Assembly: GCA_945888375.1 (NCBI GenBank)
Contig: CAMCZZ010000004.1
Span: 62,001-126,000, forward strand
From: Akkermansia muciniphila
GTDB lineage: Bacteria; Verrucomicrobiota; Verrucomicrobiia; Opitutales; Opitutaceae
Direction: 5' to 3'
DNA: 64,000 nucleotides
Within the stretch, counting starts at the first letter, position 1; every line of letters begins with the position of its first letter. A program made the translations under genes and the position numbers. The notes beneath the pieces were generated by a model. It made no database searches. It was given only the letters and a program-made list of their open reading frames with translations, and was not told where the DNA came from. Below, one piece after another: positions 7,556 to 47,983 of this stretch.

Positions 7556-8500
7556 ATGTCCACACCCGTCGAAAACGTCGTCATCATAGGCACCGGCTGC
7601 GCCGGCCTCACCGCCGCGATCTACACCGCACGCGCCAACCTGAACCCGCTCGTGCTTGAGGGCCCCCTGCCCGGAGGCCAGTTGACGACCACCAGCGAAG
7701 TGGAGAACTTCCCCGGCTTCCCCCACGGCGTGGATGGCTTTCAACTCACGCAAAACATGCGCGAACAGGCCACCCGCTTCGGCACGCGTTTTGAGCAAAC
7801 CCTCGTCACGGCCGTGGATTTCTCGGTTTTCCCCCGCCGCCTGACGCTGGGCAACCGGGAGATCCTCGCCAAGGCAGTGATTATCGCCACCGGCGCTTCA
7901 CCCCGCATGACCGGCATTCCCGGCGAAAAAGAACTTTACGGCGGCAAGGGCGTGACGACCTGCGCGACCTGCGACGGCGCTTTCTACCGCAAGATGGAAG
8001 TGGCCGTGCTTGGCGGCGGCGACAGTGCCGCCGAGGAGGCGCTTTTCCTCACCCGCTTCGCCAGCAAAGTCTACCTCGTGCATCGTCGCGACTCCCTGCG
8101 CGCCTCGAAAATCATGGCTGACCGCGCCCTCGCACACGAAAAGATCCAAATGGTCTGGGATTCCGTGCCCGTGGAGGTGCTGGGCGTATCCGAGGGCGCC
8201 GTCTCCGGCCTGAAGGTGAAAAACCTCAAAACCGGTCTGGACTCCGTGCTCCCGGTCAAGGGTGTCTTCATCGCGATCGGCCATATCCCCAACACCGGCC
8301 CCTTCACCCCCGCCCTCGAGGTCGATGCCGGCGGCTATTTTAAACCCGCTTCCGGCTCCCAAGTGCAGACCGGCATCCCCGGAGTCTATGTGGCCGGAGA
8401 CTGCTCCGATCATGTTTACCGGCAGGCGATCACCGCCGCCGGCATGGGCTGCCAGGCCGCCATCGAAGCCGAACGCTGGCTCGCCGAACACGAAGGCTGA
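7556..8500 (+). CDS. trxB: Thioredoxin-disulfide reductase
   Basis: The 314-residue flavoprotein transfers electrons from NADPH through FAD to thioredoxin in the cytoplasm. The FAD dinucleotide motif [18 protein letters not shown] is near the N-terminus, the redox-active pair is [10 protein letters not shown], the NADPH motif is [15 protein letters not shown], and the C-terminal FAD motif is [16 protein letters not shown]. The start at ATG 7556 (MSTPVENVV) fits the family. An upstream ATG at 7433 would add 41 basic residues and run through the hairpin leader, so I reject it. Confidence 0.95.
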
Positions 8501-8675
8501 AAACCACGGCATACGCGCCCAGTCTTCTCCCTTGCCCGAACAGCCCCCGCGGGCCGGGCCTCGGGCGCTATTGCCGCACGATTTTTCAACCGCCCACGGG
8601 TAACAGGATTGGCCCGCCGGACACCATCCCGTTGCCAACCCCACTCACCAAACTCGCCTAAATTGGGGCAAAACC

Positions 8676-11027
8676 ATGACTTCGCCCCGCCCCACCGCTC
8701 AACCCCCGGACTTCACCGCCGTCACTAAAACCCTGGCGGCGGCGGGTCTTTTGCTCTGCAGCCTGCTTTTGGCGGGCTGGCTGAACGGGACGGAAGCACT
8801 GACCCGGTTTTTAGGGGGGGACCGTTTATGGAGGCCGCCTCTGGCGCTGGCTTTTGGGGCCCTTGCCGTGAGCCTGTGGTTGCGGTGCAGCGGGGACGAG
8901 GCTCGTCGCGCCGGCCAACGGGCCGCCTGGCTCGGAGTCTTGCTGGGCGCCCTGCACTATTTCGGGCAAAGCTGGCCGGCGTGGCCCGCCCCAGCGCACA
9001 CCGGGACCCCGGCGGCCCTCGCGTTTCCCTCGGCCGCCACGCTGTGCGTGCTTTTGCTCGGTGCCGCCTTGCTGGGGCTCGACTACCGTGTCCGCGAGGA
9101 CAAGCGCCCGACGCACGCTTTTGCCCTGCTGGCCGCCTTGATGGCACTCTTTGCCCTGCAAGGCCGGCTTTTCAGCTCCGACTCGTGGATGGGCGAAGGG
9201 TTTTTTCAGGATCTCTCCCTCGCTGGTTCCTGTGTCATTCTGGTGCTCGCCGTCGGCGTGCTCTTCTCCAGGAAAGGAAACGGAGCCCTCCAGATTCTCG
9301 CCAGCGAGGGCCCCGGCGGGTGCATCGCCCGCCGTTTGCTGCCGCTCGGGCTCGTCATTCCCCTGTGCTCGGAATCCGTCCGCATGGTGGGCGTCCAGGC
9401 CGGCTGGTTTGATGAGCCTTTCGCGCGGGCCGCGCAAAGCACCCTCCGGGTTTTCGTCATAGGCTATCTAATCTGGCGTGTTTCCGTGGGGCTGGATCGC
9501 TCGGATGCCCAGCGCCGCACCGCATCACGGTTACTGCTGGAGGGAGAAAAGGGGGCACGGGAGGCACTCGAATCCCTGCCCCAAATCGTCTGGAGCTGCG
9601 CGCCCGACGGCCAGTGTGATTACCTCAGCCCCCAATGGGAACGCTACACCGGCACGCGAGTCGCAGGCGGCCTAGGTAACGGCTGGCAACAACAACTTCA
9701 CCCCGAGGACCGCGAGCACGCCCGCCAAAGCTGGGCGGCAAGCGCGGCCGCAGGCCGCCCTTTCGACAGCGAGCTGCGCCTGCGCCGTCATGACGGCATT
9801 TACCGCTGGTTCAAAACCCGTTCGGAACCCCTGCGTGGCACCGATGGCCGGATTCGCAAATGGTTCGGCACCCACACGGATATTGATGACCGCGTGCGCG
9901 CCGAGGCGGCCCTCGCCGAGTCCAATGCCCGCACCGAAGCGATTTTCCGAGCTTCCCGCGACGCCTTGCTCGTCACCGACCAGGATGGCCGGATACTCGA
10001 CACCAATCCCGCCACCAGCCGCCTCTTGGGCTACGAACGGCAGGAACTGCTCTCCTTCGATTTGTGCCGTCTGGAGCCAGCTGGCCGTCTGGCCGCCGCC
10101 GCCCGCGAACTCGGAAAGCGACTCGGCCGGGAAGGCGAACTCTTTGAAACCCGGCTCTCCGCCCGGGACGGCCAGACGATTGACGTGGAGGCGGCGATCG
10201 CCCCCCTGCACCGCGCTGGCGAGACTCGCCTGATTGCGGCGCTAAGAGATATCACCGGCCGCCAGAAAGCGGCCGAGGCCCTGCGCCAGGCCTATGACGA
10301 ACTCGAACGCAGGGTGCAGGAACGCACCTCGGCCATCGAGCGCAGCAACCGCGATCTGGAGCAGTTCGCCTACGTCGCCTCCCACGACCTGCAAGAGCCA
10401 CTGCGCGCCGTGGCCGGCTGCGCGCAGCTCCTTAAACGACGCTACTCCGGGCAACTCGACGCCGGTGCCGACGAGTTGATCAACCACCTGGTCACGGGCG
10501 CGGTGCGCATGCAAAACTTGATTCAGGACCTGCTGACCTACGCCCGGCTCGACCGGCGGGAGACAACCGGCATCGAGGCGGACTCGGCCCTGGCCTTTAA
10601 AACTGCCCTCACCCAGCTGGAGGTCGCCATCCGCGAGAGCCAAGCCGCCGTCAGCCTCGAGGGCGACCTGCCCCAAGTCCGCGCCGACCGCGCGCAACTG
10701 GTGCTGCTTTTCCAAAATCTGCTGGGCAATGCCTTGAAATACCGCTCCACCGCCACCCCGCGCATACTCCTGTCCGTCCAGCGCAAGGGCAACGACTGGG
10801 AATTCGCCCTGGCGGATAACGGCATCGGTATAGAACCGCGCCACCAGGAACGTATTTTTGTCATTTTCCAACGCCTCCACGCCCAAGGCGAATACGCCGG
10901 CACGGGCATCGGTCTCGCCGTCTGCAAAAAAATCGTGGAAAGGCACGGCGGCCGTATCTGGGTGGAATCCAAACTCGGGGTCGGCTCCACTTTCCGCTTC
11001 ACCCTGCCTGCCATCACGCCGCCATGA
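8676..11027 (+). CDS. Membrane PAS-domain sensor histidine kinase
   Basis: The 783-residue protein has an N-terminal half (residues about 15-270) of seven or eight hydrophobic segments. Two PAS domains follow, at about 295-405 and 415-530, then a coiled coil and a HisKA domain with the phospho-accepting His570 in YVASHDLQEPLRAV. The HATPase domain is complete: N-box LLFQNLLGNALKYR, G1 box ADNGIGIE and G2 box GTGIGLAVCKKI. The stop overlaps the start of the next gene (ATGA at 11024-11027). The coupling implies that it phosphorylates the following multi-receiver protein. The signal is unknown. Confidence 0.92.
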   Translation: MTSPRPTAQPPDFTAVTKTLAAAGLLLCSLLLAGWLNGTEALTRFLGGDRLWRPPLALAFGALAVSLWLRCSGDEARRAGQRAAWLGVLLGALHYFGQSWPAWPAPAHTGTPAALAFPSAATLCVLLLGAALLGLDYRVREDKRPTHAFALLAALMALFALQGRLFSSDSWMGEGFFQDLSLAGSCVILVLAVGVLFSRKGNGALQILASEGPGGCIARRLLPLGLVIPLCSESVRMVGVQAGWFDEPFARAAQSTLRVFVIGYLIWRVSVGLDRSDAQRRTASRLLLEGEKGAREALESLPQIVWSCAPDGQCDYLSPQWERYTGTRVAGGLGNGWQQQLHPEDREHARQSWAASAAAGRPFDSELRLRRHDGIYRWFKTRSEPLRGTDGRIRKWFGTHTDIDDRVRAEAALAESNARTEAIFRASRDALLVTDQDGRILDTNPATSRLLGYERQELLSFDLCRLEPAGRLAAAARELGKRLGREGELFETRLSARDGQTIDVEAAIAPLHRAGETRLIAALRDITGRQKAAEALRQAYDELERRVQERTSAIERSNRDLEQFAYVASHDLQEPLRAVAGCAQLLKRRYSGQLDAGADELINHLVTGAVRMQNLIQDLLTYARLDRRETTGIEADSALAFKTALTQLEVAIRESQAAVSLEGDLPQVRADRAQLVLLFQNLLGNALKYRSTATPRILLSVQRKGNDWEFALADNGIGIEPRHQERIFVIFQRLHAQGEYAGTGIGLAVCKKIVERHGGRIWVESKLGVGSTFRFTLPAITPP

Positions 11028-35479: not shown

Positions 35480-36364
35480 GTGCCTGACCTTGTTTTCACT
35501 CCGACCCTCTCCGCCATTCTCGGCCTCCAGATGGTGCTCTTGCTCGCCGGCTGTGCGATTCTGGCCGCGCGCGTCCGGTCCCTCCCCGCACGCTTTGTGG
35601 GCCTCGCCCCTAACCGCCTCACGTCGTCCCCGTTCCGCGCCAGCGAACTCTTCCTCGGCGCCGCTTTTGCATTCGGTGGCGCGATGATTTTCCACGTCGC
35701 GGTCAGTTACATCGCCAGCCGCTGGTTTCCCGCTCCGGCCGACGGCTCCCTCGGGCGTTTCCATGCCCTCACCGGCGCAGGCGTCCAACTCGGCGCGCTG
35801 GCCGGCCTCGGCCACGCCTGGTTCTGGCATCTCCGCCCCTCCAAACGCGTCGGGGAACCAATGGCTGTAACCACCGCCGCCAGGCCGCTCCCCGCTTTGT
35901 CCACCGCCGTTGCCCTGCGCGAAGGCGGGCTGGCCTTCCTCGCTCTGCTTCCCGTGGTCTGGCTGGTAAATCTAGGCTGGCAGGGGCTGCTCGGCCGTCT
36001 CGATATCCCCGCCCCGCCGCAGGATCTGGTCGCGCTCTTCGCGCGCTCGGGCGACACTCCTTCGCTCGTCATCATGGTGGTTCTGGCCGTGGTGATCGCA
36101 CCACTCACCGAGGAAATGGTCTTCCGCATTGGCCTTTTCCGCTGGATCCGCACCCGCTCGCTGCGCGGCGTCGTGCTTTTCCTCCCCGCAGCCGGTTTTG
36201 CCCTGCTCCATGGCAACCTCGCGGTGTTTCTGCCCATCGTGGTCCTGGCCGTCTGCCTGGCCCTGGCTTACGAACGCTCCGGGCATGCACTCGTGCCCAT
36301 CACGGCCCACTCGCTGTTCAACCTGAACACCGTCATCCTCATCCTCGGCGGCTACCCCGTCTAA
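35480..36364 (+). CDS. CPBP-family intramembrane metalloprotease
   Basis: The 294-residue membrane protein has about eight hydrophobic segments. The CPBP (Abi/Rce1-like) motifs are in the C-terminal half: EEMVFRIGLFRWI (EExxxR-type), FALLHGN (metal His) and ITAHSLFNLN (HxxxN-type). Known members cleave prenylated proteins or process peptides in the membrane; the substrate here is unknown. The start is GTG 35480. A run of genes on the same strand (thiL, tsaE) follows 11 bases later. Confidence 0.85.
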   Translation: MPDLVFTPTLSAILGLQMVLLLAGCAILAARVRSLPARFVGLAPNRLTSSPFRASELFLGAAFAFGGAMIFHVAVSYIASRWFPAPADGSLGRFHALTGAGVQLGALAGLGHAWFWHLRPSKRVGEPMAVTTAARPLPALSTAVALREGGLAFLALLPVVWLVNLGWQGLLGRLDIPAPPQDLVALFARSGDTPSLVIMVVLAVVIAPLTEEMVFRIGLFRWIRTRSLRGVVLFLPAAGFALLHGNLAVFLPIVVLAVCLALAYERSGHALVPITAHSLFNLNTVILILGGYPV

Positions 36365-36375
36365 ACTCGGTCCGC

Positions 36376-37320
36376 GTGCATCCCTTTTCCGATACCCCCT
36401 CCGCCACCATCGCCGCCCTCGGCGAACAAAAACTGCTGCCGCGCATCCGCCGCTGGCTCGGCTCCGCCATGCCCGCCGCGCCCCACGGCATGGGCGACGA
36501 CTGCGCCGTCCTGCCCGTGCCCCGCACCCGCCGGAATCGCGCCCCGCTCGTTACGGTGGATCCGGTGATTTACGGCGAGCACTTCGATGACGCCGTCGCC
36601 CCCCGGGCCGTCGGCCAAAAACTCCTTTCACGGAATCTCTCCGACATCGCCGCGATGGGCGGACGGCCCGACGCCGCCGTGGTCGCCCTCGCCCTCGATC
36701 CTCGGGTGCGGCTCGAGTGGCTGGAGGGCTTCTATCGGGGCCTCGCTGCCACCGCCCGCCGCCATGGCGTGCCGCTCGTCGGCGGGGACCTCGCCACCCA
36801 CCGGGGCGGGCTCGTCGCCACCCTCACCCTGCTCGGCCGCTCCGCCGGTCCGCGCGTGCTCACCCGCGCCGGGGCCCGCGTCGGCGACTTCATCGCTGTC
36901 ACCGGCGTGCTCGGCGGCAGCCTGCTGTCGGGCCACCACTGGAAGTTCACCCCGCGTCTGGCCGAGGGCGCCTGGCTCGCCGCCCGCCGGGAAGTCTCCG
37001 CCATGATGGACCTGAGTGACGGCCTGGCCAAGGACATCCACGCCCTGACCCCGCCGCGGGCCCGGGCCGCCCTGTTTGGCGACCTGCTGCCGCTCCGTCC
37101 CGGACACGACCTCCACGCGGCTTTGGGGGATGGCGAGGATTACGAACTCCTTTTCACCCTGCGCGGCGAGCCTACCGACGCCCGCCGCCTGGTCGCCGCC
37201 TGGCGCAAGAAATTCCCCCGCGTCCCGCTCACCGTGATCGGCCGCCTCGAACCCGCCGGAGCGCCGTCCGACGGCACCATCGACCTCTCCGCCCACCATG
37301 GCTTCGAGCATTTTGACTGA
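36376..37320 (+). CDS. thiL: Thiamine-monophosphate kinase
   Basis: The 314-residue ThiL phosphorylates thiamine phosphate to the active cofactor. The N-terminal metal/ATP motif is HGMGDDCAVLPVP, followed by GQKLLSRNLSDIAAMGG, GGDLATH, AVTGVLGGSL, MMDLSDGLAKDIHAL and LGDGEDYELLFTL, all as expected for the PurM/ThiL fold. The start is GTG 36376. The 3' end overlaps tsaE by 23 bases. Confidence 0.94.
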   Translation: MHPFSDTPSATIAALGEQKLLPRIRRWLGSAMPAAPHGMGDDCAVLPVPRTRRNRAPLVTVDPVIYGEHFDDAVAPRAVGQKLLSRNLSDIAAMGGRPDAAVVALALDPRVRLEWLEGFYRGLAATARRHGVPLVGGDLATHRGGLVATLTLLGRSAGPRVLTRAGARVGDFIAVTGVLGGSLLSGHHWKFTPRLAEGAWLAARREVSAMMDLSDGLAKDIHALTPPRARAALFGDLLPLRPGHDLHAALGDGEDYELLFTLRGEPTDARRLVAAWRKKFPRVPLTVIGRLEPAGAPSDGTIDLSAHHGFEHFD

Positions 37321-37747
37321 ACTTCGCGCCGGCGTCAGCACCGCCTCGGCCGAGGCCACCCGTGACCTCGCCGCCCGCCTCGCCTCCGCGCTGCCCCCCG
37401 GTTCCGTGCTGGCCCTCCATGGCGACCTCGGCGCCGGCAAGACGACCTTCGTGCAGGGTTTTGCTGCCGGCCTCGGTATTCATGAAACCATAACCAGCCC
37501 GACGTTTAACATTTTCACGCTCCATCGCGGCGCCGGTCGCACCTTGGTGCACCTCGACGCCTACCGGCTCGATTGCGGCGCGCAGCTAACGGACCTCATG
37601 ATCGAGGATTTCCTCATCCAGCCCTGGTGGCTGGCCGTCGAATGGCCGGAAAAAGTCGCCGGCTGGCTGCCGCCCGGCGCGCTGCATCTGGACCTGGGCC
37701 ACGCCCCCGGGGCTGAGCGCCGCCACACCCTGCGCTTGCGCCCGTAG
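37298..37747 (+). CDS. tsaE: tRNA threonylcarbamoyladenosine ATPase TsaE
   Basis: The 149-residue TsaE is the ATPase of the t6A37 tRNA modification complex with TsaB and TsaD. The Walker A is HGDLGAGKTTFVQGF, followed by the conserved TSPTFNIFTLH, HLDAYRL and VEWPEKV motifs. It overlaps the thiL stop, so it is translated from the same message. Confidence 0.95.
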   Translation: MASSILTELRAGVSTASAEATRDLAARLASALPPGSVLALHGDLGAGKTTFVQGFAAGLGIHETITSPTFNIFTLHRGAGRTLVHLDAYRLDCGAQLTDLMIEDFLIQPWWLAVEWPEKVAGWLPPGALHLDLGHAPGAERRHTLRLRP

Positions 37748-37765
37748 GCTTGGCGTTTGCCTCCT

Positions 37766-38560
37766 TCAGGCCAGCAGGGCCGTCAACTCGTCGCACGCCG
37801 CCGACGCCCCGGCTACGAAAGGCACGCGTGCCATCGTGAGATCAAAAACCTCGAGCGGAAACAGCGGCGCGCGCAAATACCGCACCTCGCCACCCGCACC
37901 TTGGCAAAGGGGCACCGCCGCCGCGATGTCCCAAACCTTTACGTTGTGATCGACGACGGCATCGATGAGCCCCGCGCCGACATAGGCAAGATGCAGGGTG
38001 CTGCTGCCGAGGCCGCGGATCTTGTAGCGCTCCACGAGCAGCGCGGCATGAGCGGAAAAGCGCCGGTCCATCGGACTGTGAAACCCCAGTGTGCGCCGCC
38101 CCGCCGGGGTATCGGTATTCACCCGCACCGCCCGGTCCCCGTCCCAAGCGCCGATCCCCGGCCCGCCGTGCATCAACGTGCGCCGGGAGAGGTCGTAGAT
38201 CACGCCGTAGACCGGCACGCCCTTTTCGAGCAGGGCGAGGGAGATCGCGCAAAAAGGGATGCCGGCGGCGAAGTTGTTAGTGCCATCGATGGGATCGAGC
38301 ACCCAGGCGAAGCGCGCGCGCAGGGCGATCGGCGCGGAGCCGTCGCCGAGCTCTTCGCTGAGTAATTCGTCGGCCGGGAATTGCGCGCCGAGTTCGCGGA
38401 AGATGTCCTGGGAGATCGCGATATCCGCGGAGGTGACGCGGGAACCGTCGGCTTTCCACTCGCTCGCCACCTGGCCGAATTCGCGATGCATGAAGTCCGT
38501 CCGCGCGAGGACGGCGGCCTTGGCGGCGGCGATGCGGGAGAAAACCTCGGGGGACGACAT
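37766..38560 (-). CDS. Inositol monophosphatase-family phosphatase
   Basis: The 264-residue protein has the lithium-sensitive phosphatase motifs: Glu pair in LLSEELGDG, metal loop WVLDPIDGTNNFAAGIPF, and C-terminal KVWDIAAAVPLCQGAGGEV. Members hydrolyse inositol-1-phosphate, 3'-phosphoadenosine-5'-phosphate or fructose-1,6-bisphosphate, and I cannot tell which here. It converges with tsaE and lies just downstream of the FmdB-like gene on the same strand. Confidence 0.9.
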   Translation of the reverse strand: MSSPEVFSRIAAAKAAVLARTDFMHREFGQVASEWKADGSRVTSADIAISQDIFRELGAQFPADELLSEELGDGSAPIALRARFAWVLDPIDGTNNFAAGIPFCAISLALLEKGVPVYGVIYDLSRRTLMHGGPGIGAWDGDRAVRVNTDTPAGRRTLGFHSPMDRRFSAHAALLVERYKIRGLGSSTLHLAYVGAGLIDAVVDHNVKVWDIAAAVPLCQGAGGEVRYLRAPLFPLEVFDLTMARVPFVAGASAACDELTALLA

Positions 38561-38577
38561 GGCGGCAGCGTGGCGCT

Positions 38578-39147
38578 CTACTCGTAATCGTAAAGCTTTG
38601 GGTCACGCCGGGGCTCGGTTAGGGCACGCCGCAGCTTGTAACGCATGCGGGCCTCTTTTTTTTCCGTTTCGGTGACCGCCCCGGCCCCCGGGCCCTCACC
38701 GTAGGGATCATCCTCCGCGCCCTCGGGGCCACCGGCGCCGGCACCCAGTTTTTCCTCCAAGGCATCGGGATCGACGCCCTCCTCGAGCTTGCGCACCACC
38801 TCCTCCATCTCGCCGTCGATCTTTTCGCCGGTGAGTTCAGCCATGCGCCGCATCATGCGCGCCATGGCGCGGGGATCATTCTCATCCAGGGCGGAGAACT
38901 CCTTCTCCATCGCACCCATCGCCGCCTCCATCCGGGCATCTTCCGCCGTGTCCCCGGCTGACGCACCTGCGTCGGCGGCCCCGGGCTCCTGGGCCCGACC
39001 GGTGAAGGCAAACTGCGAGACCACCCGCCGCAGCGGCCAGCGCGGATTATCCGGGCACTTCGGCGTGCTTTGCCCCTGGCTCAGGCTGCGGGCGAAGAAC
39101 TGATAGACCGTGTGGTTCTTCGAACAATAATACTCATAGATGGGCAT
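38578..39147 (-). CDS. FmdB-like zinc-ribbon protein with reduced cysteine set
   Basis: The 189-residue protein starts MPIYEYYCSKNHTVYQFF, the FmdB/CxxC_CxxC_SSSS pattern, but only two cysteines are present (Cys8 and the Cys of PKCPDN near residue 31). Normal members have two CxxC pairs. Asn/His replace the missing partners, so zinc binding is doubtful or uses His. The rest is an acidic, Glu/Met-rich helical region. FmdB proteins are small putative regulators with no firm function. It is 17 bases upstream of the inositol-phosphatase gene. Confidence 0.75.
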   Translation of the reverse strand: MPIYEYYCSKNHTVYQFFARSLSQGQSTPKCPDNPRWPLRRVVSQFAFTGRAQEPGAADAGASAGDTAEDARMEAAMGAMEKEFSALDENDPRAMARMMRRMAELTGEKIDGEMEEVVRKLEEGVDPDALEEKLGAGAGGPEGAEDDPYGEGPGAGAVTETEKKEARMRYKLRRALTEPRRDPKLYDYE

Positions 39148-39260
39148 AAATTTAAAGAGGGGGGCACCCTACGCGCAAAGCCCGCCGCCCTCAAGCCCGC
39201 GGCAAGAAGCGTGGTCTTTGGCATTTTCACCGCGGCCAGGACCGGTAATCTTCCGTCCAC

Positions 39261-41243
39261 ATGTCCGACCCGGGCCCACTCGTAGCCGACCGGACCGCGC
39301 TTCTTTCCCAAGCGCGGCTACGCCTCGCCTTGGGCCTGCGCATCGTGGACATCCGCACCGATCGCGTGGCGGTGAAATTCATGACCGGCGGGACCTACCT
39401 GGTCGTCACCCGCGCCCAGTTGGATATTTTATTGCGCTTCCAGGACGGTGACACCGTGCCGCAGGTGCTTTGCAGACTCCTGTCCGAACGCCAGAGCCCG
39501 CCCCTTCGCGAGTATTACGAACTCCTGTTGAAAGCCGTCCGCTCCGGCGTCCTAGTCACCCCGGAGCAACCGGAGCCACCGGCCAAGATCGCCGCCCTCT
39601 GGCCCTTCCGGCTGCCAGGCGGCCTGGGGCGTTTTTTTGCGCTTACCACCATGGGCGTAGCGTCACTGCTGATCACCACCCACACCCTCGAGCTCCCGAC
39701 CCACGCCGGGCAACTGCTGCTGGGCTGGATCACCGTCTGCCTCTGCGTGAGTCTCGGCCATCTCGCCGGCGCGAGCGTGCTGGCCGGCGGCGAAGGCGAG
39801 GTCTATGCCCCGCGCTGGGTGCTCCGCTCCGCGCTGCCCGGTTTTCGTTTTGATGATGCGGACGCGATCATGCTCGGCCGTGACGGAGAGGCCGACCTGG
39901 CCTTGGTGCGCCTCGCCCCGCTGTTTGCCGCCACCGCACTCGCCGCCGTGTGGTATCCCGCCTTGGTGCTGCCATTGTTCGCCGGTCTGCTTTACCAGCT
40001 CTGTCCATTTTTCAACACACCGCTCATGGCGCTCCTGCGCGCGACTTACCGGGATCCGAAACTAGATACCGCTTACGACCTGCATTTCGCCAAGAGTCAG
40101 CTTTTCCTGGTTCTGCTTCGCGCGCGCCTGAAATTTGCCGATCAACGCTTCCTGTTGATGTCCGCCGGCTACAGCCTGGTCTGGCTGGGCTTGGCGTTTC
40201 TCTGCGGGTGCGCCCTGCTCCATGCCAATGCCGGTCAACTGCTCGCCATCGCGATTAAAGAAGGCGGTTCGCACCTGACCCCCGTGGTGCTTCTGGCCGG
40301 GATGGGCACGCTGGTGGCGAGCGGTGCGGGCCTCGCCGGGTGGTTCGCGGCGCGCCATGTGCGCAACGCCGTGGCTCCCTGGCTGGAGCAGCGGGCGGCC
40401 CGTCGCCGCCGGCCGGTCCTCACTCCCGAATCCATCCGTTCCTGTCTGGCGGGCACCCACTTGTTCCGTTCATTCCCGCCGCAAGATTTGACCGTGCTGG
40501 CAACCGCCGTTCGCACCGAGGAAGTGAAGCCCTACGTGAACATCGTGCGCCAAGGCCAGCACGGCGACCGCCTTTACGTGGTGTTTTCCGGTGCCGTCGA
40601 GATTGTCCGCGAACCGCCGGTGGGACGCATAGAGGTCGTGGGCGAATTGCAGGCGGGCGAGGTTTTCGGCGAGATCGCCCTGCTCCGGGGAGGACTGCGC
40701 ACCCGCACCGTGCGCGCCTCCTGCCGCACGGTTTTGCTGAGTATCACCCAAGATGATTTCGCCGCTTTGGTGCTTTCGAGGATTTCGCGCGAGACCGTGG
40801 AAACCGCCGTGCAGAAACTCGCTTTCCTCGCCCGCATCCCGCTCGCCCGCAGTTGGAGCCCGCGCGCCGCGAGCATTTTCGCGCAACGCAGCCAGTTTAA
40901 AGACTTCCCCAAGAGCGAAGCCCTCATCCGGGAGGGCGAAGACAATCTGTTTTTCTATATCGTGCAGGAGGGTGCGTTCTCCGTCCGGAAGCATGATGCC
41001 GAGATCGCCCGCCTGCGCGTAGGCGATTTTTTTGGCGAGATCAGCCTGCTGCAAAGCAGCGTCGCCACCGCCTCGATCCTGCCGGCGACCTCGTCCCGCT
41101 GCCTCGTGATGCCCCGGCGGGAGTTTCTGGATTTTATCACCCACGATTTCCTGATCGGCCTGCAATTCGAGGAGATCAGCTCACGCCGGCTCGGTAAGCC
41201 GATTTTCCCCCTTGCCCCCGCCGCTTTTGCCGAAGCGCGCTGA
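39261..41243 (+). CDS. Membrane protein: PqqD-like + pseudo-M50-like + two cyclic-nucleotide-binding domains
   Basis: The 660-residue protein has residues 25-100 forming a PqqD-like winged helix ([22 protein letters not shown]). Residues about 124-365 are a multi-helix membrane region arranged like M50-type peptide export proteases. Where these have HExxH, this protein reads VSLGHLAGA (163-171), so the first His and the Glu are gone. Two CNB domains follow at about 395-505 (phosphate cassette [20 protein letters not shown]) and 520-630 ([18 protein letters not shown]). The first cassette keeps the Arg that binds cyclic nucleotide; the second does not. Ligand-controlled membrane sensing is plausible but not shown. 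Divergent from the FmdB-like gene. Confidence 0.8.
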
Positions 41244-41367
41244 GCCCTCGGGATCCTCCCGCCGGCAGCCCCCCGGCCTGCGCCGAGGAGCTTTCGTTTT
41301 TGCACGGGCTGCGCAGTTCGTTCGTGTAAACCCTGCCGCGCCCGTGCTTGGCTGGCGCCGCTTCCCC

Positions 41368-42120
41368 ATGCCCGCCGCCAAACTCCGCCTCGACGAACTG
41401 CTCGTCGCCCGCGGCCTCGCCCCCACCCGGGCCAAGGCCAAGGCCTACGTCATGGCCGGACTCGTCCGAACCGGCACCGAGCGACTCGATAAACCCGGCC
41501 GCGAATACCCCGCTGATTTTCCTGTCGAGCTCGTCCAGGCCGATCGCTTCGTCTCCCGAGGCGGGGAAAAACTCCAAGGCTGGCTCGACGCCCAGGCGCT
41601 CGACCTGCGCGGCGCCCACGTGCTCGACGTCGGCGCCTCCACCGGCGGCTTTACCGATTGCGCCCTCCAGGCCGGAGCCGCGTCCGTGACCTGTATCGAC
41701 GTCGGCCGCGCCCAGCTTCACGGAAAATTGCTCGCCGACCCCCGCGTGACCAACCTCGAACAAGTCAACGCCCGCCACCTCGACCCCGCCCTCCTCCCCC
41801 GCCCTGCCTATGACGCCTTGGTGATGGACCTTTCTTTCATCTCCCTGCGCAGCGTCCTGCCGGCCGTCTGGCCCGCACTCCGCCCCGGCGGCACCCTAGT
41901 GGCCCTGGTGAAACCCCAGTTCGAAGCCGGCAAGGCCGAGGTGGACAAAGGCCAGGGCATCATCCGCGACCCCGCCGTGCAGCAACGCGTGCTCGACGAT
42001 ATCCGCGCTTTCGCGGTCGAACAACTCCCCGGCGCCCGCCTCATCGCCACGATGGACAGCCCCATCACCGGCACCGACGGCAACCGCGAGTTTCTCCTCG
42101 GCCTGGAAAAGCTCCCTTAG
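41368..42120 (+). CDS. tlyA: TlyA-family RNA methyltransferase
   Basis: The 250-residue protein has an N-terminal S4 RNA-binding domain ([27 protein letters not shown]) and an FtsJ-like SAM methyltransferase domain ([58 protein letters not shown]). TlyA enzymes 2'-O-methylate rRNA; older annotation as haemolysin is misleading. ATG 41368 ([12 protein letters not shown]) is chosen; the upstream open frame is not family sequence. Confidence 0.93.
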
Positions 42121-42226
42121 CCCACCCGCGTTTCCATTTTCCGCTTTCCGCTTTTCGTTTTTCCTCCGCCCTCCCGCGCCCGTCTGTTTTTCCGCGTTTC
42201 CGCTTTTCCGCTTTTTCTTCCTACCC
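42121..42226 (+). repeat. Pyrimidine-rich spacer with repeated TTTCCGCTTT-like units
   Basis: This 106-base gap between tlyA and the gluconokinase gene is almost all T and C on the plus strand and contains many variants of ttttccgctt (for example around 42137-42160 and 42188-42215). No frame, terminator hairpin or promoter stands out. It looks like low-complexity slippage growth. Confidence 0.6.
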
Positions 42227-43195
42227 ATGCCCTCAGTGCCCGGTCTCCGCAGTCCCTACGCCCGCGTGGGTCGCCTCGTCTATTTCGGCCGCCTGCTCGA
42301 TAAGATCCGCCTCCACGCCGCCGGCACCCTGCCCGCTGAGTATCTGGACAACCTCGGCGACGCCAAACCCACCGTCTTCGACGGCCGCATCTGCCGTTTC
42401 CTGCGCGTGCCCTTTGCCGAGATGCAGGCCCGCGTGCGCGTCGAACCCACCGCCAGCGACGCCGAACACCTCGCCTGGGTCGAGGCCCGCGCCCTCGCCG
42501 CCGGCCACCCGCCGCGCACCGACGAGGAGTGCGAGATCTTCAGCGCCTTCCTGAGTAAACGCGGCTGGCGCGATGCCGGCGCCGTCATCCTCGCCCAGCG
42601 CGCCACCGAGCCCGCCGTCGCCGGACAGCCCATCGCGACGATGTTTGACTACATCGATTTCGACGAGGGCCGCGACCCCGTCGCCACCCATGCCTGGGAG
42701 GTAAAACCGCTCGTGCTCGTGATCATGGGTGTAGCCGGCTCCGGCAAGACCACCCACGGCCGCGCCCTTGCCACCGCCCTCGGCTGGGAGTTTGCCGACG
42801 CAGACGACCACCACCCCGCCGCCAACGTCGCCAAGATGCGCGCCGGCACCCCGCTCGACGACGCCGACCGCGCCCCCTGGCTCGCCGCCCTGCGCGCCCT
42901 GATCGAGGGCCACCTCGCCGCCGGGCGCCCCCTCGTGCTGGCCTGCTCCGCCTTGAAACAAGCCTACCGCGACGCGCTCTGGGCCGATCGCCCGCGCATG
43001 CGCCTCGTCTATCTGGAAGGCACCCGCGAGGAACTCGCCGCCCGCCTCGCCGCCCGCAGCGGGCATTTCATGCCGGCGGCATTGCTCGACAGCCAGCTCG
43101 CCGACCTCCAGCCCCCGGCCGACGCCATCCGCGTGCCCCTCGCCCTCTCCACCGAAGCCCAAATCGCCACCACCCGCGCCACCTTGGCGCTTTGA
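42227..43195 (+). CDS. DUF5069 - gluconokinase fusion protein
   Basis: The 322-residue protein has residues 1-150 as a DUF5069 domain (SPYARVGRLVYFGRLLDKIRL, ending FDYIDFDEGRD). From about 160 on it is a complete GntK-type gluconokinase: Walker A VIMGVAGSGKTTHGRALA, DADDHHPAANVAKMRAGTPLDDADRAPWL, LACSALKQAYRDALW and LEGTREELAARLAAR. GntK makes 6-phosphogluconate for the pentose-phosphate or Entner-Doudoroff path. DUF5069 is of unknown function. The fusion is the odd point. The stop overlaps or abuts the next gene start. Confidence 0.88.
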   Translation: MPSVPGLRSPYARVGRLVYFGRLLDKIRLHAAGTLPAEYLDNLGDAKPTVFDGRICRFLRVPFAEMQARVRVEPTASDAEHLAWVEARALAAGHPPRTDEECEIFSAFLSKRGWRDAGAVILAQRATEPAVAGQPIATMFDYIDFDEGRDPVATHAWEVKPLVLVIMGVAGSGKTTHGRALATALGWEFADADDHHPAANVAKMRAGTPLDDADRAPWLAALRALIEGHLAAGRPLVLACSALKQAYRDALWADRPRMRLVYLEGTREELAARLAARSGHFMPAALLDSQLADLQPPADAIRVPLALSTEAQIATTRATLAL

Positions 43196-43197
43196 AC

Positions 43198-44106
43198 GTG
43201 AGTGCCGCCCCTTCCGCCCCCGCCATTGGGCCGCTCCTCGCCCTCCCCGCCGAGGCTTGGCAGGCCCGCGCCCACGCCCACGAGACGCGTGTGCGGGCCT
43301 GGACGGATCCGCATCAGGCCCGCGCCGGTCGCGGTGAGAAGCACCCCGTCTACGATTTTCTTTTCACCTACTACGGTTTCCGCCCCGCCTGGCTGCGGCG
43401 CTGGCATCCCGGCCCCGGCGTCACCCTCGCCGGCCCCGAGGCACGGACCTTCCTGCGCGACCTCGAATACCACGAGACCGCCGACGGCGTGACCCTCCGC
43501 CCCGACGCCCTGCCGGAAAAACGCCGCGCCTACGTGCGCTGGCTGCGCGAGTTGCTGGTCAACACCCTCGACCGCCCCGCCCACTTCGCCTGCTTCGGCC
43601 TCCACGAGTGGGCCATGGTCTATCGCCAGACACCCGAGGAGACGCGCCATAACCAGTATCCGCTGCGCTTCCCGCCCGACGAACTGGCCCGCCTGGTGGA
43701 GGCCCAACCCCTCCGCTGCACTCACTTCGATGCCTACCGGTTTTTCACCGCCCCCGCCCGCCCGCTAAACCGCCTCGCCCTCGCCCGCGAGACCACGCTC
43801 GAGCACGAGCAAGCCGGTTGCCTGCACGCCAATATGGACCTCTACAAGTGGGCCCATAAACTCGTGCCGCTGGCCCCCGCCGAGCTCATCGCCGACTGCT
43901 TCGAACTCGCCCGCGATATTCGCGAACTGGACATGCGGGCCAGTCCCTACGACCTCGCCGCGCTCGGTTTCCCCCCAGTCAAGATCGAGACCCCCGAGGG
44001 CCGCGCCGACTACGAGCGCCAGCAACGCTCTTTCTCCACCCGCGCCCGGCCCTTGCGCCTCCGCCTCCTCGCCCTCTGCGACCACCTGCTGCGTTTCGAT
44101 CTATAA
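43198..44106 (+). CDS. Uncharacterised protein (family sometimes labelled 3-methyladenine DNA glycosylase)
   Basis: The 302-residue soluble protein has the conserved block KHPVYDFLFTYYGFRPAWLRRWHPG near the N-terminus, HFACFGLHEWAMVYRQ and LRCTHFDAYRFFT in the middle, and GCLHANMDLYKWAHKLVPL later. Similar proteins from other bacteria carry a 3-methyladenine glycosylase label in databases, but I see no helix-hairpin-helix or other known glycosylase feature. I would keep it as unknown. Many His, Trp and Cys residues in the blocks suggest a metal or redox site. The start is GTG 43198 (TTG 43192 also possible), 2 bases after the gluconokinase stop. Confidence 0.75.
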   Translation: MSAAPSAPAIGPLLALPAEAWQARAHAHETRVRAWTDPHQARAGRGEKHPVYDFLFTYYGFRPAWLRRWHPGPGVTLAGPEARTFLRDLEYHETADGVTLRPDALPEKRRAYVRWLRELLVNTLDRPAHFACFGLHEWAMVYRQTPEETRHNQYPLRFPPDELARLVEAQPLRCTHFDAYRFFTAPARPLNRLALARETTLEHEQAGCLHANMDLYKWAHKLVPLAPAELIADCFELARDIRELDMRASPYDLAALGFPPVKIETPEGRADYERQQRSFSTRARPLRLRLLALCDHLLRFDL

Positions 44107-44374: not shown

Positions 44375-47300
44375 CTAAGGAGCGGGTTGGCTCCTGAGGC
44401 GGTAGAACTGGGTGGAGGAGTCGAGCGCGGGCAGCTCCAGGCGAAGGACGCCGCCGGGATAGGTGAGCATCGGCGCGGTGAGGGTGCGCTTGGTCCAGGT
44501 GTTGAGGTCGGTGGATTCCTGCACGGTGACATCTAGTAGGAAGTTGCCGTTTGCGCCGCGTTGCAGGGTGGGGCTGCCGACCGCGAGACCCCGCATCTGG
44601 TCGGCGGTGTAGTAGATGCCGAGTTCGGGGATCATGGCCAGGAGACGGGTCCACTCCTCGGTGGAATCGACCGCCGGATCGAGGCCGAAGACAGAAAGGT
44701 AGGTTTCGAGCGCGTCGGAAATCCCGTCGCCATCGGAATCGGGCGAGGTGGGGCTGATGGTGATGGTGAGCGTGGCAGCGGTGCTTGGCGCAGTCCCGAA
44801 GGCGTTGGAGACCAAGCAGGCGTATTTGGCCTCATCCAGGAAGCGCACGTCGGTCAAGGTGAGGGTGCTGGCAGTCGCGCCCGCGATGTCGCGGCCGTTT
44901 TTGCGCCACTGGTAGCCCAAGGGACCGGTGCCTGTGGCGGTTACGCCAAAGGTGGCAGAGGCAGCCGGATTGACCGACAGGGAGGCTGGCTGGGCGGTAA
45001 TGGCTACGGGAATATTTACGGTGAGCGTAGCGATATTGGAAGTAACGGAACCGGCGGCGTTGGTGACGACGCAGGTGTAGTTACCCGCGTTTGCGGTCTG
45101 GGCGGAAGCGATGGAATACGAGGTTTCAGTAGCCCCGGAGATTGAGGTGCCATTGAACTTCCACTGATAGGTGGGAGCCGGCGTGCCCGTCGCAGTGATG
45201 CTAAAGACAGCGGCGGCGTTTTGCAGCACAGACAAGGACGTGGGCTGGACCGTGATTGCGGGCGGAATTTGAACCGTAAGGGTGGCCGCCGAGGAGGTGA
45301 CGGAACCGGCGACGTTGGTCACCACGCAAGTGTAGGTGCCCGCATTGGCAGCCTGGGTGGAGGCGATTGTATAGGAGGCTGAAGTGGCGCCGGAGATATT
45401 CGTGCCATTGAGCCGCCATTGATACGTTGGGGCCGGCGTCCCCGTGGCCGTGATACTCAAGACCGCAGAAGCGTTTTGATTCACGGTAAGGGACGTGGGC
45501 TGGGCCGTGATGGCCGGCGCGATCTGGACGGTGAGGGTGGCTGCGGCGGAGGTGACGGAGCCCGCCGCATTGGTGACCACACAGGTGTAGCTACCCGCGT
45601 TGGCAGCCTGGGCGGAGGCGATGGAGTAGGAGGCCGCGGTGGCGCCGGAGATATTCGTGCCATTGAGCCGCCATTGATACGTGGGAGCGGGCGTCCCCGT
45701 TGCGGTGATGCTCAAGACCGCGGCGGAGTTTTGCAGCACCGCCAGGGACGTGGGTTGGGAGGTGATGGCCGGGGCGATTTGAACGGTGAGGGTCGCTGCG
45801 GCGGAGGTGACGGAGCCCGCCGCATTGGTGACCACACAGGTGTAGCTGCCCGCGTTGGCAGCTTGGGCGGAGGCGACGGAATAGGAGGCCGCGGTCGCGC
45901 CGGAGATATTGGTGCCATTGAGCCGCCATTGATACGTGGGAGCGGGTGTGCCCGTAGCGGTGATGCTAAAGGCTGCGGAGGCGTTTTGATTAACGGTGAG
46001 GGAAGACGGTTGCGAGGTGATGGCGGGGGGGATTTGGACCGTAAGAGTCGCCGTCGAGGAGGTGACGGAACCTGCCGCATTAGTCACGACGCAGGTGTAG
46101 CTACCGGCGTTGGCCGCCTGGGTAGATGCGATGGTGTAGGAGGCCGAGGTGGCTCCGGAAACATCGCTGCCGTTGAGCTGCCATTGATAAGTGGGAGCCG
46201 GTGTGCCGGTGGCGGTTACGCTCAAGACCGCGGAAGCGTTTTGATTGACGGTAAGAGAAGACGGCTGGGAGGTGATGGTGGGGGCAATCTGGACTGTAAG
46301 GGTGGCCGCCGTGGTGAGCAGCAACTCATCGGGATCGCTCACTATACAGGTATAGTTAGCCGCGTCTGTGCTCGAAACAGCGGGGATCGTGTAACTGGAA
46401 GAGGTAGCACCCGAGATAGAGATACCATTTTTGCGCCACTGATACCCAATAGGCTCAATACTGGTAGCCAATACGCTAAACGTGACGCTATTGCCCAAGT
46501 TTATGCCTTGGGAAGCGGGCTGGGTGCGGATAACAAGGTTGGTCTCGGGGTAAACCGTGAGGGTGGCCGCCGAGGATGTTACCGAGCCCGCCACGTTAGT
46601 TATCAGGCAAGAATAGCTGCCGGCGTCGGCCAAGACCGCCGAAGCCAGAGAAAGAGTCGATGCGACGGCACCGGGGATAGAAACGCCGTTTTTACGCCAT
46701 TGATAAGTCGGGGATGGAAAGCCGGCGGCTGTCACCGACATGCTTAAGCCAGACCCTGCGGCGATCGATTGGCTTACTGGGTGCGTCTGAATAAACGGTC
46801 CTGAAGCCGTGGTAGTGATATAAACCGGAGGAGTGTAAACAAGGCCAGTGTTCTGCTGGGCTAGTTGCCCATACAAATTGGAGCCGCAGCCATACACGGT
46901 GCCATCGGTTTTAATAAACAAACTATGCCTACCCTCTGTGTGATCAGCTGATACGGCAAAGACCTCCTTGGTAAATTGTATGATTTGCGATAGCGGTTGA
47001 CCGCCGGCCATGATTGTGCTTCCCAAAAATTGGAAGTGAGCATTATTCCCGCATCCCCAAAGGGTGCCATCGGTCTTGATAAAAAGACTGTATGTATTTC
47101 CAGCCGACACTACTGAAACATTATCCAACACTTGTGTATGATCGACTGTCTGAAGGGAGTGGCCGAGTTGGCCATAATAGTTATTGGGGCCAAATGTCCA
47201 GGCCGTAAGGTCATCCTTAACATAGATTACATGACTATACGCAGAAGACATAGTGCGAACGCCGGATGCAATTTTAAGGATTAAGCTGTAAGAATAGGGG

Positions 47301-47983
47301 CTGTTCGAGCCGACACTTTGACCTGACGTCTGCCAGAGTGTTTTGTCATTTTTTAAGAAAAGGCTGCAGCCGGCATCTGCGCATATCTGGGCAATATCAG
47401 TTAGGGCCACCTGGACAGGCCAGGTTTTATATGCATTCCAAGCACCTGGATTGTAGCTTAATCCATCCCCCAACTGGCCGTTATTATTACTTCCGCAAGA
47501 CCAAGCTGAGCCATCAGATTTAAGAAATAAGCTGTGGCCAAAACCAGCAGCAATAGCCTTTACACCTGACATCACTTGTATTGGAGTGTTGCTATTAGTA
47601 ATGGTGCCATCGCCGAGTTGGCCATACCAGTTTACACCAGTAGTCCACACGGTTCCATCGGTTTTAAGTATCATACTATGATTAGATCCACATGCGATAG
47701 CCTGCGCATTTTCCATAATCTTTACCGGAACCAAACGATCAACATTAGTGCCATCGCCGAGCTGGCCGTATTGGTTGCTACCAAAGGCCCACACCGAACC
47801 GTCGGATTTTAGGATCAGGCTGTGTCTGCCACCCGCCGCTACCTGAGGCTGCACTACTGTCTGAGCGAAACAAACTGACGCCCCGCCAGTCAGGACCGCT
47901 ACCAGCAGACTAACCCGTGCTATCAAGCCGAGAAGCCATGAGGCGATAGATAAGGAGTTCGGATTTGGGGGGGGGTTTTTCAT
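44375..47983 (-). CDS. Secreted RCC1-repeat / Ig-like-repeat protein
   Basis: The 1202-residue protein has a signal peptide ([15 protein letters not shown], residues about 26-40). Residues 45-390 hold about seven RCC1-type blades ([20 protein letters not shown] and relatives), likely one beta-propeller. Eight Ig-like domains lie at about 395-1076; units 3-7 are near-identical 85-residue repeats with the Trp and paired Cys of the Ig fold. A calcium-type motif [17 protein letters not shown] (1078-1094) and a C-terminal domain with QESTDLNTW follow. A surface adhesion or binding role is inferred. A Shine-Dalgarno-like aggaa precedes ATG 47983. A C9 tract lies in codons 3-6. Divergent from the XRE regulator gene. 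Confidence 0.85.
45011..46285 (-). repeat. Five tandem 255-bp Ig-domain repeats
   Basis: Residues 567-991 of the RCC1/Ig protein are five successive 85-residue units that differ at only a minority of positions, so the DNA repeats every 255 bases across this span. The outer Ig units (1, 2 and 8) are clearly more divergent. Recent duplication or homogenisation by recombination is the natural reading. Confidence 0.88.
47967..47975 (-). repeat. Nine-base G/C homopolymer at the start of the RCC1/Ig gene
   Basis: Nine G on the plus strand (nine C in the coding strand) cover the end of codon 3 and codons 4-6 of the large secreted protein, 6 bases after its ATG. A gain or loss of one base would abolish the protein, so it is a candidate phase-variation tract. 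Confidence 0.6.

Follow-up and report, generated by a model that had tools for sequence, protein, structure and literature searches.

The stretch of DNA analysed here, hereafter the window, comprises 64,000 nucleotides of contig CAMCZZ010000004.1 (positions 62,001 to 126,000) from a 3.2-Mb assembly of the family Opitutaceae that is 99.5% complete, and on its forward strand, at 39261..41243, it encodes a protein of 660 amino acids in the reading frame that an earlier note on this DNA had reported. The protein combines in a single chain an N-terminal winged-helix domain of the PqqD/RRE type, as in the recognition elements (RREs) for ribosomally synthesized and post-translationally modified peptides (RiPPs), a membrane core resembling the M50 or site-2 proteases, and two C-terminal cyclic-nucleotide-binding (CNB) domains. 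With about as much confidence as doubt, we propose that it could be a membrane receptor or adaptor that descends from the proteases of RiPP maturation, no longer cleaves, and binds peptides under the control of a cyclic nucleotide.

Because CNB chains filled the VIA-align list of the full-length AlphaFold2 model (pLDDT 81.6), the N-terminal part was folded alone, and residues 9-385 gave a model with a pLDDT of 84.8. About the first 100 residues of this model matched the RRE domains of TigE (Z 11.2), MccB (Z 8.4) and TbiB1 (Z 8.0) and PqqD itself (5SXY, Z 7.1), so that at Z 7.1-11.2 the winged-helix fold of the RREs was recovered, and Foldseek also ranked RREs first, although weakly. The PqqD-like N-terminus that the earlier note had suspected is thereby borne out, though Pfam gave no PqqD match, and a profile search against the sequences of the PDB returned nothing related at E 10. 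Within the family, conservation over stretches of 13 residues peaks at helix 3 of the RRE and at the phosphate-binding cassette of the second CNB domain, at 0.77 each against an overall mean of 0.46. In known RREs helix 3 forms the cleft that binds the leader peptide. In the part of an RRE-discovery paper that was available, neither transmembrane nor cyclic-nucleotide proteins are mentioned (PMC12710340).

The relation of the membrane part to M50 enzymes was addressed with seven HExxH-bearing proteins of the same bacterial family (L108-L114), which, in those scanned, are RRE-M50-HlyD proteases by NCBIfam and Pfam matches. A 28-row profile of the window protein's family aligned with them by hhalign at E 2e-5 and a probability of 77 in one collinear alignment of 251 columns, which runs through the RRE, the active-site helix and a GGEV...P...VD stretch to the NP of the second zinc motif, and a 22-row full-length alignment gave E 4e-5 and a probability of 70. 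When the comparison was rerun, the score was 48.6 (E 3e-5), against 22.1 and 24.7 for reversed controls and 28.1 for the best of 40 block shuffles; taken separately, the RRE (E 0.009) and the core (E 2.5e-4) each aligned at the correct place, and residues 276-384 gave no significant hhalign alignment with the active relatives. Among structures, residues 104-314 of the model matched SpoIVFB (8VJM, Z 6.9; 8VJL, Z 6.7) and MjS2P (3B4R, Z 6.2), values at which, being below 8, or below 13 for helical bundles, a VIA-align match can reflect a mere common arrangement of helices, and these two site-2 proteases were the only membrane proteins above Z 4.5. The membrane part is probably a site-2-protease homologue, a claim of moderate strength that rests on the agreement of the profile and structure methods.

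Loss of the active site was read from a set of 78 members, obtained from 102 matching loci by removing 10 shorter than 560 amino acids (contig ends or broken frames) and 14 near-duplicates with at least 95% identity. As the earlier note had stated, the segment in the place of HExxH reads VSLGH in the window protein (residues 163-167), and this alignment, together with the profile comparison and the models, backs the inactive M50-like domain at moderate strength. The register of VSLGH against HExxH is uncertain by three residues, because the distance to the shared GGEV-like motif exceeds that in the active enzymes by three residues; the doubt leaves the count unchanged, since none of the 78 relatives carries HExxH in the membrane part and the window protein has none in any register. 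A single HETLH was found in the CNB region of one relative (L156), outside the membrane part. In the second zinc motif Pro249 is kept in all 78 and the DG in none, and Trp308 is invariant (78/78). Judged by sequence, the membrane core is catalytically dead across all 78 relatives examined.

The active relatives also point to the origin of the protein. Three of them match the NCBIfam model of the daptide intramembrane metalloprotease (NF041824, E 1e-47 to 6e-50) and the YydH/LiaK epipeptide model (NF058609, E 1e-9 to 4e-12), in both cases below the equivalog cut-off; M50 proteases act in RiPP pathways, and EpeP is thought to cleave and export its substrate, according to the accessible part of a review (PMC10885120). 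Therefore, the window protein looks like a RiPP-type protease that has kept its RRE and membrane core and lost its cutting site. The earlier note had placed the PqqD-like domain in a partner of such proteases, which seems not to hold for these relatives: hhalign of the RRE part suggests a PqqD/RRE domain in the M50 chain itself, and one of those scanned has weak PqqD matches below the cut-off. Their chain further contains a HlyD-like part (above the Pfam cut-off in one of the two scanned, and also recognised by NCBIfam), with a further HlyD-like match just upstream in several genomes, and from the sequences the CNB domains of the window protein look like occupants of the place of this part.

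The two CNB domains are the only domains of the chain visible to Pfam (cNMP_binding, E 1e-34, in two stretches), and in a structure search the model of the tandem resembles the regulatory domains of PKA and PKG. It had been claimed that the ligand arginine survives in the first domain (CNB1) and not in the second (CNB2), and this is what a 45-row alignment shows for the window protein (one row, L023, being out of frame in its N-terminal part): the ligand pair E471 and R480 is present in CNB1, and A602 stands at the phosphate-binding position of CNB2. Across the 78 members, CNB1 has both Glu and Arg in 35, neither in 42, and Arg with Asp in one; on a quick tree this state changes three times, against a mean of 26.8 on shuffling and with as low a number in 0 of 200 shuffles, and it splits the family into two large groups, the window protein belonging to the one that has Glu and Arg. 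One copy from each side of the tree is present in at least five genomes (G016, G064, G095, G175, G186). CNB2 is uniform, with Glu in 76, Asp in two and Arg in none of the 78. Cyclic-nucleotide gating of the protein, the other part of the earlier note's reading, would be plausible.

A nucleoside pocket of the kinetoplastid type was considered for CNB2 and rejected for the window protein. In kinetoplastid PKAR the nucleoside-binding signature, as given in the part of the source seen, is a second Glu two residues past the cassette Glu together with the absence of Arg (PMC10959531), and the window protein has S595 at this position. Glu595 accompanied by Glu or Asp593 is found in six of the 78 relatives (L132, L134, L136, L046, L159, L161), all in one subclade of eight rows, the remaining two of which carry Asp there. 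Among the genomes with the gene, a class III cyclase match is missing only from G055 and G155, both of this subclade.

Residues 1-385 have homologues in 66 of 200 genomes sampled from the bacterial family (21 of 49 genera), and the 28-row profile found at least 22 of 387 genomes across the phylum, seven of them outside the family, a lower bound with five candidates scored per genome. Fifteen of the 16 loci from the phylum search that were aligned in full have both CNB regions, and the remaining one (L051, a frame of 562 amino acids) has the second only. A profile search of the contigs of named records with 11 closer rows gave 24 related loci, all labelled as Verrucomicrobiota groups, mostly Opitutaceae, Opitutus, Opitutia/Opitutae and Lacunisphaera. 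Against relatives at 78 and 75% identity, the ratio of nonsynonymous to synonymous substitution rates (dN/dS) is 0.17 and 0.20 for the whole gene, with high dS (0.86-0.91), and 0.18-0.29 for the membrane part, which indicates purifying selection that includes the dead core. Since the homologue is carried by 66 of 200 genomes and dN/dS is low, the architecture is not a product of chance. The parts of the gene are collected in Table 1.

Table 1. Parts of the gene, in positions of the window, with the basis of each assignment
Feature	Position	Strand	Basis
Whole gene, 660 aa, RRE - pseudo-M50 - CNB1 - CNB2	39261..41243	+	ORF list, Pfam, AlphaFold2, VIA-align
PqqD/RRE-type winged-helix domain, residues 10-108	39288..39584	+	VIA-align to TigE, MccB, TbiB1, PqqD; hhalign against the same domain of RRE-M50-HlyD proteases
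RRE helix 3 region, residues 80-92	39498..39536	+	Family conservation count
Site-2-protease-like membrane core, residues 110-275	39588..40085	+	hhalign, AlphaFold2 model, VIA-align
Apparently dead active-site segment VSLGHLAG, residues 163-170	39747..39770	+	78-member alignment
NxNPxxxxDG zinc-motif relic, residues 246-255	39996..40025	+	78-member alignment
Remaining membrane helices and helical stalk to the CNBs, residues 276-385	40086..40415	+	Models; hhalign to active relatives not significant
CNB1, residues 386-508	40416..40784	+	Pfam, structure models
CNB1 phosphate-binding cassette, residues 466-484, with E471 and R480	40656..40712	+	Alignment
CNB2, residues 509-645	40785..41195	+	Pfam, structure models
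CNB2 cassette, residues 588-606: E593 kept, A602 replaces Arg	41022..41078	+	Alignment, conservation count

Class III cyclases, a possible source of the ligand, were matched in 64 of the 66 genomes with the gene and in 97 of the 134 without it (the same 200 genomes; Fisher p 8e-6, uncorrected for kinship). The window's own genome has one class III cyclase match, of the CHASE2 type, and three CNB proteins at E 0.001, namely the studied protein, a sulfate permease-STAS-CNB protein and a CNB-CNB-ferredoxin protein (L164, L166), none of the three being Crp-like. In one genus a CHASE2-cyclase gene lies upstream on the same strand in four of the five sampled genomes that carry the gene, at 2.1-2.4 kb in three and at about 6 kb in the fourth. 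A second type of neighbour encodes FHA proteins of about 290 amino acids with a divergent class III cyclase-like C-terminal part, relatives of which occur in 19 of the 200 genomes; in five of the 13 genomes with both genes (G025, G047, G156, G186, G198, of five genera) such a gene lies within 6 kb, where uniform placement would give 0.06, the neighbourhood having been spotted first and counted afterwards. FHA/cyclase-like genes of this type lie at L174:8232-9089, L182:1606-2463, L187:1992-2858 and L183:5316-6110. The putative cyclase-like part goes unrecognised by Pfam, aligns with the CHASE2 cyclase of its genome over about 50-70 residues (E 1e-7 to 4e-6), and keeps two invariant Asp and one invariant Arg in a four-row alignment; the Asn that we assume to be expected near this Arg seems replaced. 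The same five loci also show matches to a Hanks-type Ser/Thr kinase, confirmed by Pfam in four, and to a PP2C phosphatase, confirmed in two; in G186 the stop codon of the kinase abuts the start codon of the gene, and a sixth locus (L073), at the end of a contig, combines the kinase with an FHA fragment.

In the window, a zinc-ribbon gene, presumably FmdB-like, and an inositol-monophosphatase gene lie upstream on the opposite strand, and an S4-FtsJ gene, which we take to be TlyA-like, lies downstream on the same strand (families by Pfam). The first two neighbours are common to the window and its two closest relatives. CPBP, thiL and tsaE genes lie upstream in the window, and 2-3 kb upstream of the gene in G020 and G064 (one genus) and in L075 (with pyrC in two), which suggests that this part of the family was inherited vertically in place on the chromosome. 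L075 belongs to Candidatus Synoicihabitans palmerolidicus, where the copy (8046-9953) is split over two frames into three open stretches and the pyrC-CPBP-thiL-tsaE neighbourhood is retained. On a contig labelled Akkermansia muciniphila, a metagenome-assembled genome, the gene and two of its neighbours closely resemble their counterparts in the window (L054), and the bin is probably mislabelled. A RiPP gene cluster was not found among the eight window neighbours scanned with Pfam at 35480-44103, seven of which belong to families of other kinds and one to no family.

Further along the window, the gene at 42227-43195 (+) fuses DUF5069 to a P-loop kinase domain (AAA_33, by Pfam) and is, as we assume from its motif, gluconokinase-like. 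The 304-amino-acid protein at 43192-44106 (+) has no Pfam match; its 63% identical homologue in another genome (L130:3642-4490) adjoins a family member that lacks the CNB1 Glu and Arg. A protein of 1202 amino acids at 44375-47983 (-) carries, by eye from the translation, RCC1-like repeats and, after them, a run of very similar Ig-like repeats. In two distant genomes (G303, G513), proteins of 170-188 amino acids that look alike by eye are encoded about 100 bp downstream of the gene (L127:3763-4326 and L128:7767-8276), and their C-terminal part recalls, on our assumption, pseudopilins of the GspG type. Response regulators adjoin some copies of the gene, in unlike positions and strands.

In the proposed receptor, an RRE-M50 peptide-maturation protease of the daptide, YydH-EpeP or RRE-M50-HlyD kind would be the ancestor, with a tandem CNB tail in place of HlyD. 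The N-terminal RRE would grip a short stretch of its peptide or protein partner, on the cytoplasmic side if about six membrane helices put the RRE and the CNB domains on the same face, and the dead site-2-protease core would retain the hydrophobic part of the partner in the membrane, uncut. A class III cyclase could supply a cyclic nucleotide to CNB1, and the binding there, transmitted through the hinge of the tandem and the long stalk helix, would alter how the partner is held or released. CNB2, a conserved pocket without the Arg, would take a different ligand or act as a lock on the tandem. In this scheme we infer the topology, the identity of the ligand, the binding of a peptide and the direction of the signal. 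A broader version, speculative and in our view doubtful, would make the proteins coincidence receptors, in which the RRE senses a peptide, CNB1 a cyclic nucleotide and CNB2 a second, phosphate-free ligand, with the output passing to the Ser/Thr kinase, PP2C and FHA-cyclase module in a pathway without Crp; the CNB2 of one subclade, two of whose genomes have no class III cyclase match, would have shifted to a kinetoplastid-like, two-Glu pocket of the nucleoside type.

Several observations weigh against the receptor proposal. The M50 match is of moderate strength only (probability 70-77; Z 6-7), no site-2 protease was among the top 50 of Foldseek, and residues 1-385 have no Pfam PqqD or M50 match even at E 10. 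As 42 of the 78 members are without the CNB1 Glu/Arg pair, cyclic-nucleotide control, if any, is not universal in the family. In HetC the CNB domain is needed for function and its ligand is ppGpp, not cAMP, according to the part of the report available (PMC10986499), so that the ligand cannot be read from the name of the domain. Kinship and genome completeness may inflate the association with class III cyclases; most of the 57 loci searched, some genomes being represented twice, show no cyclase, kinase, PP2C or FHA neighbours, and elsewhere in the family the neighbour genes vary among lineages. The 64-kb window contains no match to the CHASE2-cyclase, kinase, PP2C or FHA/cyclase-like genes of the module, and the link to the module therefore rests on the relatives.

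Of the explanations that compete with a peptide receptor, the likeliest, itself improbable, would be a cyclic-nucleotide-gated peptide translocator, in which the dead M50 core serves as a peptide conduit opened by the CNB domains, comparable to HetC. In its favour are the HlyD-like part in the chain of the active relatives and the additional HlyD-like match upstream in several genomes, and it would agree with the presumed export by EpeP (PMC10885120, seen in part) and with HetC, which couples a CNB domain to a peptide exporter, degenerate C39 domains still interacting with substrate (PMC10986499, in the part seen). However, the chain has no Pfam ATPase or adaptor domain, and the eight window neighbours scanned offer none either, except the P-loop protein TsaE and the gluconokinase-like kinase. 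Less likely again is a regulatory pseudoprotease, which would control an active membrane protease, either another M50 enzyme of the genome or an RRE-M50-HlyD enzyme. Pseudoproteases often bind and control active proteases, and Arabidopsis EGY3, a site-2-protease homologue without HExxH, helps to stabilise other proteins, according to what was seen of the source (PMC10978774), but the co-occurrence to be expected is not clear: RRE-M50-HlyD enzymes, counted as active when matched with E up to 1e-60, a cut of our own, are present in 24 of the 66 gene-bearing genomes against 32 of the 134 others (p 0.07), and in the window's genome Pfam recognises a single M50 gene at E 0.001.

To the same slight degree as the pseudoprotease, a structural scaffold could be considered, with the protease core and the CNB pockets free of ligand and the protein organising a membrane complex of Ser/Thr kinase, PP2C and FHA proteins. 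The absence of the Arg from CNB2 in all 78 members and of the Glu/Arg pair from CNB1 in 42 would suit it, as would the kinase, PP2C and FHA genes that adjoin in five genomes of five genera; however, the joint retention of Glu and Arg in 35 of 78 and the place of the CNB2 cassette among the most conserved stretches weigh against it. An anti-phage effector like Pycsar, a membrane protein triggered by a cyclic pyrimidine nucleotide, appears very improbable. The combination of CNB domains and membrane helices, the PADLOC Pycsar and TIR-effector models that match the CNB parts (E 4e-15 to 2e-12) and the cyclases near some relatives would be in keeping with it, but these matches are confined to the CNB domains, the whole window has no CHASE2-cyclase or FHA/cyclase-like match (the two cyclase types searched there), and three other genomes have the gene at 2-3 kb from the housekeeping genes that accompany it in the window.

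Each part of the proposed receptor resembles a known system. In the RRE-M50 RiPP proteases (NF041824, NF058609; L108-L114), as in the window protein, an M50 core follows a PqqD/RRE-like domain, and with L108-L114 about 250 columns align collinearly, whereas HExxH and the DG have been lost in all 78 relatives examined, and the window protein has two CNB domains and no HlyD part. EGY3 is likewise a functional site-2-protease homologue without HExxH, but it is a chloroplast protein, and the part of the paper seen mentions neither RRE nor CNB domains for it (PMC10978774). In HetC and in the two-CNB, 'bacteriocin-type transport-associated' proteins of TIGR03896, too, CNB domains go together with membrane systems that handle peptides, by attachment or by association; however, HetC is described, as far as the source was available, as an ABC exporter with an active C39 cysteine protease and one CNB (PMC10986499), and the CNB domains of the window protein reach 60.6 bits with TIGR03896, far below its cut-off of 161.05. 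The regulatory domains of PKA and PKG, including kinetoplastid PKAR, have the same tandem arrangement of CNB domains, whereas the window protein has no kinase and no Arg in CNB2, and it differs from kinetoplastid PKAR by the absence of the second, ribose-binding Glu (S595). No description of a CNB-bearing M50 or site-2-protease homologue was found in the full-text literature, a coverage that leaves out most subscription journals. Relative to the literature searched, the domain combination, the disappearance of the catalytic site across the family and the neighbourhood of kinase and FHA-cyclase genes are undescribed, each part being known singly.

In conclusion, if the proposal is true, this would be, within the searched literature, the first described site-2-protease scaffold placed under a sensor of the cyclic-nucleotide type after the loss of its active site, and the family allows a clean test of the role of an intramembrane protease that is dead. 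The protein is also a candidate receptor for the class III cyclase of its genome, a genome that yielded no Crp-like protein. Cells may thus have turned an enzyme that once cut peptides into a peptide receptor under the control of a signal.

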